DNA of 64,000 nucleotides from Blautia sp. (GTDB lineage: Bacteria; Bacillota; Clostridia; Lachnospirales; Lachnospiraceae): assembly GCA_029257805.1 (NCBI GenBank), contig JARIAR010000025.1:62001-126000 (forward strand), written 5' to 3'. Each line of letters opens with the position of its first letter. The first letter of the stretch is position 1. The translations under genes and the position numbers were made by a program. Below are positions 57,322-61,960 of the stretch, piece by piece. Under the pieces are notes generated by a model. That model had not been told where the DNA came from. It saw only the letters and a program-made list of their open reading frames with translations, and did no database searches.

Positions 57322-57338
57322 ATTTAATATAGGCAGAA

Positions 57339-57376
57339 AATAAAAGGATCAGTTAAACTGGTTCTTTTATTTTTTT
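57339..57376 (+). terminator. Terminator after aspartate kinase
   Basis: AATAAAAGGATCAG (57339-57352) pairs with CTGGTTCTTTTATT (57358-57371), with two G-U pairs, followed by T. Confidence 0.85.
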
Positions 57377-57397: not shown

Positions 57398-57446
57398 TTG
57401 ACAAAATCGAACAAATGTTTTATTCTTAAGACAGAACAAATGTTTG
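57398..57446 (+). promoter_or_regulatory. Promoter with two LexA (DinR) boxes
   Basis: TTGACA (57398-57403) and TATTCT (57421-57426) are 17 bases apart. A LexA-type box CGAACAAATGTTTT (57408-57421) fills the spacer. A second, AGAACAAATGTTTG (57433-57446), covers the likely start of transcription. Both fit the Bacillus-type GAAC-N4-GTTY pattern. The radical SAM gene that follows is therefore predicted to be SOS-induced. Confidence 0.8.
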
Positions 57447-57457
57447 GAGAGTAAGGC

Positions 57458-58756
57458 ATGGTATATAAAGAAAATATGGGGATATTGGAAAAATTGCAAA
57501 TATTATCAGATGCGGCCAAATATGATGTTGCATGTACCTCCAGCGGCGTAGATCGAAAGGGAGATGGAAAAGGCATGGGAAATAGTATTTCCGCAGGAAT
57601 CTGTCATAGTTTTTCCGGGGATGGACGCTGTATTAGTCTTTTAAAGGTTTTGTATACAAATGAGTGCATATTTGATTGTAAATATTGTGTAAACAGAGCG
57701 GCCAATGATGTAGTGAGGACCAGTTTTACTCCGGAGGAGCTTAGCCGGCTTACCATGGAGTTTTATCGGCGAAACTATATAGAAGGATTATTCTTGAGTT
57801 CGGGAGTAAAAGGGAGCCCGGATGAAACAATGGAGGAACTGATCCGTACAGTGGAACTTTTGCGGAAACATTATCATTTTCAGGGCTATATACATTTAAA
57901 GGCAATTCCTGGTGCTTCATCTGATCTTATAGAGAAGGCGGGATATTTAGCGGATAGAATGAGTGTGAATTTGGAATTACCAACAGCGGAAGGGCTTAGA
58001 AGACTGGCACCTCATAAAACACGGCGTACAATCTTAAAGCCTATGAAACAGATTCAGATTCAACATGGGGCAAATAAAGAAGAACTGGCAGTTTATCATC
58101 ACGCACCGAAGTTCGTTCCTGCAGGACAGAGTACACAGATGATTATAGGAGCAACAGGAGAAAGTGATTATGAAATTGTATCGGTGGCAGAATCTTTATA
58201 TGAGCAGTTTTCTTTAAAACGTGTTTTCTATTCTGCCTTTGTGGCGGTAAATGAGGATAAAGATCTTCCTATGCTCCCTTTTGGACCTCCGCTTTTGAGA
58301 GAACACAGGCTATATCAGGCGGATTGGCTTATACGGTTTTATGGTTTTCACGCTTCTGAACTTTTATCAGAAAAGCGTCCGAATTTTAATCTTTTTTTGG
58401 ATCCAAAGTGTAACTGGGCAATTTCACATCTGGAGTACTTTCCGGTTGAAATTAATAAGGCAGACTATTATATGCTGCTTCGTGTACCGGGAATCGGAGA
58501 GAAATCAGCGAAAAGAATTTTGGGAGCCAGGAAAACACATTCTCTTGATTTTGAAGATCTTCAAAGAATTGGAGTTGTTTTAAAAAGGGCATTATATTTT
58601 ATTACATGCAGAGGAAGAATGATGTACAAAACAAAAATGGAAGAGGATTATATTGTAAGAAATATGATAGATTCTAAGGAACGGTTTTTAATGAATGAAG
58701 GGAATATAACGTATCAGCAGTTATCTTTGTTCGATGATTCCTTTATACAAACATAA
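57458..58756 (+). CDS. Putative DNA modification/repair radical SAM protein (TIGR03916 type)
   Basis: This 432-residue radical SAM protein has the cluster motif CxxxCxxC in NECIFDCKYCVNR. It has the family-specific segments SAGICHSFSGDGRCISLLKVLYTN at the start, GLFLSSGVKGSPDETMEELI, VNLELPTAEGLRRLAPHK, and a C-terminal helix-hairpin-helix (LLRVPGIGEKSAKRILGARKTH), a DNA-binding element. This matches the family annotated as a putative DNA modification/repair radical SAM protein, linked in other genomes to uracil-DNA glycosylase-like proteins. Chemistry is unknown. The LexA boxes support a DNA damage role. A GGAGAG site precedes the ATG. Confidence 0.88.
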   Translation: MVYKENMGILEKLQILSDAAKYDVACTSSGVDRKGDGKGMGNSISAGICHSFSGDGRCISLLKVLYTNECIFDCKYCVNRAANDVVRTSFTPEELSRLTMEFYRRNYIEGLFLSSGVKGSPDETMEELIRTVELLRKHYHFQGYIHLKAIPGASSDLIEKAGYLADRMSVNLELPTAEGLRRLAPHKTRRTILKPMKQIQIQHGANKEELAVYHHAPKFVPAGQSTQMIIGATGESDYEIVSVAESLYEQFSLKRVFYSAFVAVNEDKDLPMLPFGPPLLREHRLYQADWLIRFYGFHASELLSEKRPNFNLFLDPKCNWAISHLEYFPVEINKADYYMLLRVPGIGEKSAKRILGARKTHSLDFEDLQRIGVVLKRALYFITCRGRMMYKTKMEEDYIVRNMIDSKERFLMNEGNITYQQLSLFDDSFIQT

Positions 58757-58770
58757 GAATGAGGTACAAA

Positions 58771-59553
58771 ATGGATAGAGATACAAAAATGGTCCTCATG
58801 TGTGAGGAAAGCTTAAGAGGAGTTTTTACAGCAATATATGATGGGTGGAAATATGCAGTACAGGGATATAAGATTGAAATCTGTACAGATATGCAGGAAA
58901 ACATGGAGCTTTTCAGTGTTTATCAGGAGATTGTTCCAGATGATGAAAAGGCGCAGAAAGTGGGAAAAAGTATACGTAAGAAATTAGGTATGCAAGTGTA
59001 TGAAGATATCTGCTATGCGATTGCTTCCAATCATCCAGAGAAAGGGACGGCAGTTTTTTATGTGCTGCGTCTGGGATTTGCGGCAGGTCGATGCAATAAA
59101 AAGGTTATGGAGGCACTGGGGGATCCATATGTGAATCTTGTTGCTAAACTTCGGACAAAAGTATGGAATGAAATACATCGGTTTTTGGGGTTTGTCCGTT
59201 TCCAGGAAACAGGAGGTATTTTGTTTTCGAAAATTTCGCCGGAAAATGATATTCTGATAATGCTATCCACACATTTTGAGAATCGTTTTCCAAGAGAGTA
59301 TTGGATGATATATGATGAGAAAAGAAAAAAGGTGCTGGTTCATAAAGCGGGGGAAAAATGTATGATTTATACAGATGTGGAATTTTTTCCGGAAAAAGCA
59401 GAATACCTGAAAGAAACGGATGTGTATGAAACATTATGGAAAACCTTTTGCCAGAGTATTGAAATAAAAGAGAGAAGAAATAGAAAACTGCAGCAGCAGC
59501 TTGTGCCGAAGAAATTTCAGATGAATATGATAGAAATGAACGGCAGTAAATAG
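58771..59553 (+). CDS. Putative DNA repair protein, DUF4130 family (TIGR03915 type)
   Basis: This 260-residue protein is the usual partner of the upstream radical SAM protein. Features include LMCEESLRGVFTAIYDGWKY at the start, DICYAIASNHPEKGTAVFYVLRLGF, NEIHRFLGFVRFQETGGILFSKISPENDILIMLSTHFENRFPREYWMIYDEKRKKVLVH. I chose ATG 58771 with GAGGT upstream. The radical SAM stop lies 14 bases before it, so they share a transcript. In other genomes the family is fused to a UDG-like domain; no such domain is present here. Biochemical function unknown. Confidence 0.82.
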   Translation: MDRDTKMVLMCEESLRGVFTAIYDGWKYAVQGYKIEICTDMQENMELFSVYQEIVPDDEKAQKVGKSIRKKLGMQVYEDICYAIASNHPEKGTAVFYVLRLGFAAGRCNKKVMEALGDPYVNLVAKLRTKVWNEIHRFLGFVRFQETGGILFSKISPENDILIMLSTHFENRFPREYWMIYDEKRKKVLVHKAGEKCMIYTDVEFFPEKAEYLKETDVYETLWKTFCQSIEIKERRNRKLQQQLVPKKFQMNMIEMNGSK

Positions 59554-59617: not shown

Positions 59618-61960
59618 ATGGAAAAACCAACAGTCCGAATTTCAGTGAGAAATCTTGTTGAATTTATACTGCGAAGAGGAGATATCGATAATCGTCGGAA
59701 TTCCAATGACAAAGAAGCAATGCAGAAGGGGAGCCGGATTCATCGGAAAATACAAAATAAAATGGGGAGTCATTATAAATCGGAAGTTTCTCTTAAATGG
59801 AGGAGCGAGTACGATGATGTTGTGATCCTTGTGGAAGGGCGTGCAGATGGCATTTTTGAAGAAGAAGAACAAATCTGCATTGACGAAATTAAGGGAGTTT
59901 TTACTAAGATTGAGAATATTACAGAGCCACTTCCGGTGCATAAAGCACAGGCTATGTGTTATGGGAGAATTTATGGAGAAACACAGGGGCTTTCTGAAAT
60001 AGGAATACAGATGACGTATGCAAATCTGGATACAGAAGAAATCTGTCGCTTTCGGGAAAAATATACTTTGGATGAATTAAAAAAATGGTATAAGGCTCTT
60101 ATGGATTCTTATCATAAATGGATATCCTATCAGTTAAAATGGAGAGAAAAAAGAAATGCCTCTATGCAAAATCTGGAATTTCCATTCCCATATAGAGAAG
60201 GACAGCGCCAGATGGTAAGTGGCGTATATCACGCTATTTCAAAAGAAAAACAAATTTTTATTCAGGCACCTACCGGTGTTGGGAAAACAATGTCGACAAT
60301 TTTTCCGGCGGTGCGTGCTGTAGGTGAAGAAAAAGGAGAAACCATATTTTATCTTACTGCGAAAACGATTACCAGAACAGTAGCAGAAGAGGCATTTGAA
60401 GTTTTGGCACAAAAGGGGCTGAAGTTTAAGTCTATTACCATAACGGCTAAAGAAAAAATGTGTTTATGTACAGAGGTAGAATGTAATCCGGATGCCTGTC
60501 CTTATGCAAAAGGGCATTATGACAGAATTAATGATGCTGTTTATGAATTATGGAAAGATGGTGATTCCTATAACCGGGAAATCCTCCTGGAACATGCAGA
60601 AAAATGGAAGGTATGCCCGTTTGAATTGAGTTTGGATTTGGCTTTATGGGTAGACGGGGTGATTTGTGATTATAATTATGTATTTGATCCAAATGCACAA
60701 TTGAAACGCTTTTTTGGTGAAAATAAATGTGGAAAGTATATTTTTCTTGTGGATGAAGCGCATAATCTTGTGGACAGAGGAAGAGAGATGTATAGTGCAG
60801 ACATCTGTAAGGAAGAGGTGTTGGAAGTTCGAGGAAAAATAAAAGAAAAATATCCAGGCCTGGCCAAAGCGTTGGAACGTGTAAATAAACAGCTTTTGGA
60901 GATGAAGAAAAGTTGTGGACAGTACGAGATTCTTGATGGACCGGGGCCGTTTCCGCTAAGTCTTCTCAGGGTAATGGGGGAAATGGACCGCATTATGGAG
61001 GAAACACCAGAGCAGAAATTTAAGGAAGATATTCTGGAATTTTATTTTGGAGTAAGAGATTTCCTTAATATATCGGAACTGGTAGATGAAAATTATGTTG
61101 TATATACAGAGAATGGTGAAGATGGAAAATTTCGCCTTCATTTGTTTTGTGTAAACCCGGCAGATAATTTAGGAGAATGTCTGTCAAAAGGTGTCAGTAC
61201 TGTGTTTTTTTCAGCTACGTTTTTACCCATGAAGTATTACCGGGAAGTTTTAAGTACAGAAAAAGATACATATGGAATTTATGTGCCCTCTCCGTTTCCA
61301 AGAGAAAACAGATGTCTTTTAATTGGAGATGATGTAAGCAGCCGATACACAAAAAGAAATTACGGGGAATATAGAAAAACAGCAGAATATATTGCGAGGC
61401 TCATATGGCAGAAAAAAGGTAATTATATGATATTTTTCCCATCATATAAATTTATGGAAGAAGTGTATGCTGTTTATGAAGATGAATTTTCTGTAGGATG
61501 GATCCGTAGTATTTGTCAGAAAAATGATATGAGTGAAAGAGAAAGGGAGATATTTCTGGAAGAATTTTCAGAAGATGGTGCAGTAGTAGGATTTTGTGTG
61601 ATGGGAGGTGTTTTTGCAGAAGGGATTGATCTTATAGGAGATCGCTTGATCGGGGCTGTTATTGTGGGAACCGGACTTCCTCAAATAAGTAATGAAAGAG
61701 AAATTCTAAGAAAATATTATGATGCAAAAGGAGAAAATGGTTTTGATTATGCATACCGTTTTCCTGGAATGAATAAAGTACTTCAGGCATCGGGACGTGT
61801 AATTCGAACCCAGTATGACAAAGGGGTTATTCTTCTTTTAGATGATCGTTTTTGGAATAGAGATTATCAGGGACTTTTTCCAGCAGAATGGATAGATAGA
61901 AAAAGGTGCAGATTAAAAACAATAGAAGAGGAACTGCAGGAATTTTGGAATGAAAAATGA
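59618..61960 (+). CDS. XPD/DinG-type Fe-S helicase fused to an N-terminal PD-(D/E)XK-like nuclease domain
   Basis: This 780-residue protein has an N-terminal domain of about 180 residues with a nuclease-like motif: GSRIHRKIQ, VEGRADGIFEEEEQICIDEIKGV (Asp and Glu-x-Lys) and HKAQAMCYGRI. The helicase follows: Walker A QAPTGVGKTM, DEAH box LVDEAHNLVDRG, four Cys of an Fe-S cluster in the MCLCTEVECNPDACPY region, and the C-terminal ASGRVIRTQYDKGVILLLDDRF. Such superfamily 2 helicases unwind damaged or branched DNA. It follows the SOS-type radical SAM/DUF4130 pair on the same strand. GGGAG precedes the ATG. Confidence 0.85.
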   Translation: MEKPTVRISVRNLVEFILRRGDIDNRRNSNDKEAMQKGSRIHRKIQNKMGSHYKSEVSLKWRSEYDDVVILVEGRADGIFEEEEQICIDEIKGVFTKIENITEPLPVHKAQAMCYGRIYGETQGLSEIGIQMTYANLDTEEICRFREKYTLDELKKWYKALMDSYHKWISYQLKWREKRNASMQNLEFPFPYREGQRQMVSGVYHAISKEKQIFIQAPTGVGKTMSTIFPAVRAVGEEKGETIFYLTAKTITRTVAEEAFEVLAQKGLKFKSITITAKEKMCLCTEVECNPDACPYAKGHYDRINDAVYELWKDGDSYNREILLEHAEKWKVCPFELSLDLALWVDGVICDYNYVFDPNAQLKRFFGENKCGKYIFLVDEAHNLVDRGREMYSADICKEEVLEVRGKIKEKYPGLAKALERVNKQLLEMKKSCGQYEILDGPGPFPLSLLRVMGEMDRIMEETPEQKFKEDILEFYFGVRDFLNISELVDENYVVYTENGEDGKFRLHLFCVNPADNLGECLSKGVSTVFFSATFLPMKYYREVLSTEKDTYGIYVPSPFPRENRCLLIGDDVSSRYTKRNYGEYRKTAEYIARLIWQKKGNYMIFFPSYKFMEEVYAVYEDEFSVGWIRSICQKNDMSEREREIFLEEFSEDGAVVGFCVMGGVFAEGIDLIGDRLIGAVIVGTGLPQISNEREILRKYYDAKGENGFDYAYRFPGMNKVLQASGRVIRTQYDKGVILLLDDRFWNRDYQGLFPAEWIDRKRCRLKTIEEELQEFWNEK

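Follow-up and report, generated by a model that had tools for sequence, protein, structure and literature searches.

A radical SAM/DUF4130 gene pair of Blautia preceded by conserved LexA-type boxes and its probable place in the SOS response

Radical S-adenosylmethionine (SAM) chemistry is used by few DNA repair enzymes, and we describe here two neighboring genes of Blautia sp. (Lachnospiraceae), encoding a radical SAM protein and a DUF4130 protein, in a stretch of 64,000 nucleotides (nt) of contig JARIAR010000025.1 (assembly GCA_029257805.1, positions 62,001 to 126,000, forward strand), referred to as the window. The two proteins belong to families TIGR03916, which we take to be identical with COG4277, and TIGR03915, and no biochemical study of either family was found in the open-access literature. 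Among the closest described systems, CAC3343-CAC3344 of Clostridium acetobutylicum were included in the LexA regulon on the basis of footprint and expression data, the control being a prediction (PMC3828012), and SOS control of the COG1573-COG4277 operon has been reported in Bacteroidetes, with citations given there for Verrucomicrobia and Alphaproteobacteria (PMC8565304). LexA control, which a preliminary description of the locus had proposed from the sequence alone, is thus not new. SplB (spore photoproduct lyase) genes are described as SOS-regulated in some Proteobacteria (PMC3323433). For DUF4130 an enzymatic role related to mutagenesis has been predicted, with links to SplB-like radical SAM proteins and to uracil-DNA glycosylases (UDGs; PMC3765255). 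Moreover, the radical SAM gene vnz_31145 is up 20-fold after mitomycin C and bound by LexA (PMC9380542), and a radical SAM protein is counted in the Gram-positive core SOS regulon (PMC7739468), but either of the latter two may lie outside TIGR03916.

In the window the radical SAM gene (57458..58756, plus strand, 432 aa) is followed on the same strand by the DUF4130 gene (58759..59553, 264 aa), which begins 2 nt past the stop codon of the first. Both are preceded by a predicted promoter, TTGACA-17-TATTCT (57398..57426, plus strand; TTGACA at 57398-57403, a spacer of 17 nt, TATTCT at 57421-57426), that has 10 of 12 consensus bases and ranks first among nine promoter-like sites detected between 57250 and 59750, a region for which chance predicts 8.4. 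Two LexA-type boxes of the pattern GAAC-N4-GTTY, identical in sequence (GAACAAATGTTT) and spaced by 25 bp, are located in the promoter spacer (box 1, 57409..57420, plus strand) and at the predicted transcription start (box 2, 57434..57445, plus strand), upstream of the ATG at 57458. This arrangement had been reported in the preliminary description, and every detail of it is correct by sequence.

The position of the boxes is conserved before orthologues. In a sample of 120 Lachnospiraceae genomes, one per genus, 68 contain TIGR03916 over cut-off, and upstream DNA was read in 65 of the 67 genomes other than that of the window (G026 and G058, in which the gene is cut or split, were left out), boxes being counted in the 300 nt that precede the conserved N-terminal motif. 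On this count, to which L095 was added, a box precedes the orthologue in 58 of the 65 other genera, as compared to 0.81 on average and at most 3 in 100 shuffles, and at least two boxes are present in 31 of them. The survey of homologues called for in the preliminary description thus found boxes, the opposite of the absence that was to speak against LexA control. Within the window's own genus the gene is present in 18 of 41 genomes, and among the 17 congeners of the window genome 14 carry a box, 11 of them two. Over these 82 loci (65 genera and 17 congeners) the real half-sites match in 72, nine scrambled half-site patterns match in 0-4, and, as a control, a box was found before 4 of 179 other open reading frames (ORFs) in 35 of the loci. 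An earlier reading over 400 nt gave a box in 77 of 88 rows, in which the window and one further locus are each represented twice and L095 is missing. The ten loci without a perfect box mostly carry near-boxes at the usual place, e.g. GAACATACATTC or paired AAACN4GTTT; L140 and L155 have no near-box there either. In 144 boxes the middle bases, left free in the search, are biased to ATAT (A 0.81, T 0.65, A 0.65, T 0.81), and in 57 of 71 cases (81 examined) the box lies inside the best promoter-like site or no more than 30 nt downstream of it. Beyond Lachnospiraceae 49 loci were fetched, 12 of which have no recognisable N-terminal motif and were excluded from the box count; 25 of the 37 loci counted have a box, although the few boxes located more than 200 nt upstream may be chance matches.

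In the genome lexA and recA each have a single match over cut-off. CGAACATAGGTTCG is located upstream of recA and CGAACACACGTTCA upstream of uvrB, and a perfect box precedes lexA in 23 of the 29 Lachnospiraceae relatives read (L244 excluded). LexA motifs differ between clades: the published motif of Gram-positives is GAAC-N4-GTTC, that of Alphaproteobacteria GTTC-N7-GTTC and that of most Beta- and Gammaproteobacteria CTGT-N8-ACAG (PMC3323433). Orthologues on plasmids were found in 158 records, and from the 40 listed 13 proteobacterial loci were hand-picked for spread, the Gemmatirosa locus L260 standing outside all counts. All ten alphaproteobacterial loci chosen have GAAC-N7-GAAC, located 17-39 nt upstream of the start (expectation 0.034 in total), and all three betaproteobacterial loci chosen have CTGT-N8-ACAG (0.01 expected). 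As the operator motif changes with the clade, the gene, judged by these motifs, retains SOS control across three operator types. Conserved box placement together with clade-specific LexA motifs before the plasmid orthologues makes LexA control of the pair very likely. In the preliminary description such control was regarded as direct sequence evidence for a damage role. The control is supported by conservation, by position and by the motif before recA, uvrB and the relatives' lexA, but it tells when the genes are used rather than on which lesion or through what reaction they act.

The first gene product was correctly recognized in the preliminary description as a radical SAM protein with a helix-hairpin-helix, as it matches TIGR03916 (rSAM_link_UDG; 678.5 bits, cut-off 343.5), PF04055 (33.0 bits) and, at its C-terminus, the helix-hairpin-helix family PF12836 (27.1 bits, cut-off 27). 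The radical SAM triad C70-x3-C74-x2-C77 is present in all 143 sequences compared, and three further cysteines are located N-terminally of it, C26 and C58 in 143/143 and C49 in 142/143; H50 is found in 141/143. These three invariant or nearly invariant extra cysteines preceding the radical SAM motif suggest a second Fe-S cluster on C26/C49/C58. The sole exception to C49 is L214, which has a second cysteine beside C26. L214 lacks H50 as well and carries a CGC motif, and it is part of a lower-scoring TIGR03916 subgroup (L203-L214), in which C26 lies one residue closer to an aspartate and the DUF4130-like partners score below cut-off. A profile search of the PDB with the radical SAM family gave matches confined to the helix-hairpin-helix and short radical SAM stretches. 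The link to UDG in the family name, which is not part of the family score, has no counterpart here, the partner being DUF4130 without UDG.

This partner matches TIGR03915 (222.5 bits, cut-off 112.25) and PF13566 (DUF4130; 155.8 bits). TIGR03916 and TIGR03915 are found over cut-off in the identical 68 of 120 Lachnospiraceae genomes, which bears out the earlier statement that DUF4130 is the usual partner, and outside this family a DUF4130-like ORF is present in 45 of 49 loci, the exceptions being L214, L185, L187 and L199. In Proteobacteria the neighbor of the radical SAM gene encodes a fusion of DUF4130 with UdgX (TIGR03914), and all five proteobacterial partners aligned contain GEQPG and a K-R-R-I-H loop (R-x-H, with the histidine of the crosslinking loop). 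DUF4130 was considered as a hidden UDG, but hhalign gave 17% over 15 columns, at a linker, so that this kinship is not supported. A solved structural relative of DUF4130 was sought and none was found.

From the boxes, their conservation, the pairing, the motifs and the UdgX fusion, all read directly from the sequence, we infer LexA binding, induction, a second cluster, separate tasks for the two proteins and a function in the repair of base lesions, which together make up the following proposal. The two genes would form an SOS operon whose proteins jointly process damaged DNA by radical chemistry, a reading that we hold to be rather probable. LexA bound to both boxes would shut the promoter, and upon DNA damage LexA would be cleaved and the pair produced. 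The helix-hairpin-helix would grip the DNA and the radical SAM centre would attack a base lesion by radical chemistry, probably aided by the second Fe-S cluster, while DUF4130 would recognise the lesion or pass it on, a role to which Proteobacteria may have joined the UdgX domain. Joint action of the two proteins on DNA is likely, and base-lesion repair by radical chemistry is our best guess at what they do. More tentatively still, and with considerable doubt, the pair may stand for a widespread SOS-induced repair branch, in which a DNA-binding radical SAM enzyme that carries a second Fe-S cluster on three cysteines joins DUF4130 in reversing or rewriting a base lesion and UdgX acts as covalent lesion trap in Proteobacteria. 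If true, such a role would explain the purpose of UdgX.

Several observations weigh against the proposed SOS operon and its joint chemistry. The window contains GAAC-N4-GTTY twice, as compared to 3.3 expected occurrences (75 of 100 shuffles reach at least 2), and genome-wide there are 119 matches vs 128 for the reversed pattern, i.e. the box is not enriched. The genome's own lexA (G000:C24:8342-8941, L057) is preceded only by GAATATCTGTTT, with one mismatch. Published Bacteroidetes motifs were sought before three Bacteroidota orthologues (L162, L163, L171) and none was convincing, the search yielding just GGA-N5-TCC at -133 and -175 and CTAA-N5-TTAG inside the gene. In L185, L187 and L199, all from one family (f53), a strong radical SAM match is present, but the stretch examined contains no box and no DUF4130 ORF, so that in these loci the radical SAM protein may act by itself. 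An NCBIfam/Pfam search revealed no UDG or UdgX domain in the window pair, and an AlphaFold model (7 sequences; mean predicted local distance difference test score (pLDDT) 55.4, predicted template modelling score 0.43) is good only at about residues 330-390, with pLDDT <50 over the C26/C49/C58 stretch, too poor to judge the placement of the cysteines. The box counts in window and genome, being at chance level, would suit the view that the boxes are chance matches or the sites of another repressor. It is, nevertheless, position and conservation, not frequency, that rise above chance: the placement is conserved in 58 of 65 genera, the motif recurs at recA, uvrB and the relatives' lexA and switches with the clade, so that chance boxes are rejected and the view as a whole is very improbable. 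Of the exact 12-mer GAACAAATGTTT, the 2.6 Mb assembly contains four copies, two of them at this promoter.

The remaining rivals concern the reaction. Assignment of the pair to a uracil or deaminated-base pathway, in which DUF4130 and UdgX would capture a site and the radical SAM protein would process the base or free the crosslink, draws on the DUF4130-UdgX fusion with its GEQPG and R-x-H loop and on the report that UdgX bonds covalently to an abasic site, its physiological role being described there as largely unknown (PMC10359453). Yet the Lachnospiraceae pair lacks a UDG domain, the only UDG-superfamily match of the genome lies elsewhere (C61) and DUF4130 has no detectable kinship to UDG, and we thus regard this pathway as possible but doubtful. 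That the pair mutates or modifies DNA instead of repairing it would agree with the prediction for DUF4130 in PMC3765255 and with the NCBIfam family name, which says modification/repair, but an operon without a polymerase, and two proteins neither of which matches any PADLOC defence model, render this unlikely. Photolesion repair of the SplB type would combine radical SAM chemistry with SOS control and would fit the grouping of DUF4130 with SplB-like radical SAM photolyases in PMC3765255. Little UV reaches a gut anaerobe, however, no SplB family was matched in NCBIfam or Pfam and a PDB search with the family profile retrieves no SplB chain with an E value of up to 1, so that membership in SplB is unsupported and we consider such a system improbable. 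Solved SplB structures exist.

Upstream, a predicted intrinsic terminator of an aspartate kinase gene (57338..57372, plus strand; 16-pair hairpin, T-rich tail, -14.8 kcal/mol, z -6.4 vs shuffles) divides this gene from the radical SAM/DUF4130 operon; the hairpin is absent from the output of a consensus terminator scanner. Directly 3' of the pair and on the same strand lies a Rad3/DinG-like helicase gene (59618-61960; TIGR00604, 143.7 bits, under cut-off; PADLOC typeIV_DinG, 416.7 bits), the N-terminus of its product looking nuclease-like by eye. Of 35 wide Lachnospiraceae loci, 8 also have the helicase gene downstream in the same orientation, as do L160 and L161.

The preliminary description had envisaged an oxygen-sensitive radical repair reaction in an anaerobe, which would be novel. 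A reaction specific to anaerobes is, however, not supported, as orthologues are found on plasmids of Paracoccus, Phaeobacter, Azospirillum and Caballeronia, all of them aerobic genera, and the pair is thus not limited to anaerobes. Among mobile records, the pair occurs in fecal contigs labelled 'Bacteriophage sp.' and in a 240-kb phage record of Acinetobacter (H41-H60), reflecting either phage carriage or mislabelled bacterial DNA. In an IMG/VR contig (L172, 851-4260) an alphaproteobacterial-type radical SAM copy adjoins a gene that by eye is tape-measure-like, and NZ_CP077849.1, labelled as Acinetobacter baumannii plasmid and of an odd size for a plasmid (3.66 Mb), contains a copy with 50% identity.

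Since the pair stays coupled to the SOS switch across three unrelated types of LexA operator, it is under selection for production upon DNA damage, and its reaction is therefore probably a repair or tolerance step important in many gut and soil bacteria. It is this reaction that constitutes the main interest of the finding, and the link to UdgX opens the physiology of that protein to testing.

Taken together, LexA control of such pairs was already known as a prediction and is here extended to this genome and quantified. CAC3343-CAC3344 resemble the window pair in this predicted control, orthology being judged by product name and gene order, but the report covers one species and prediction only (PMC3828012). 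The COG1573-COG4277 operon is reported to be LexA-controlled and combines a helix-hairpin-helix/radical SAM gene with a repair partner, which there is a uracil-DNA glycosylase, whereas in the window it is DUF4130 alone (PMC8565304). SplB is a radical SAM DNA repair enzyme, as proposed for the window protein, but no kinship is detectable beyond the radical SAM motif, and the window protein has a C-terminal helix-hairpin-helix and three extra cysteines. UdgX occurs in Proteobacteria as a fusion with DUF4130, next to the radical SAM gene, whereas the window pair contains no UdgX domain. To these systems the present analysis adds the three extra cysteines, invariant or nearly so, and the proteobacterial DUF4130-UdgX fusion with its crosslinking-loop motif.
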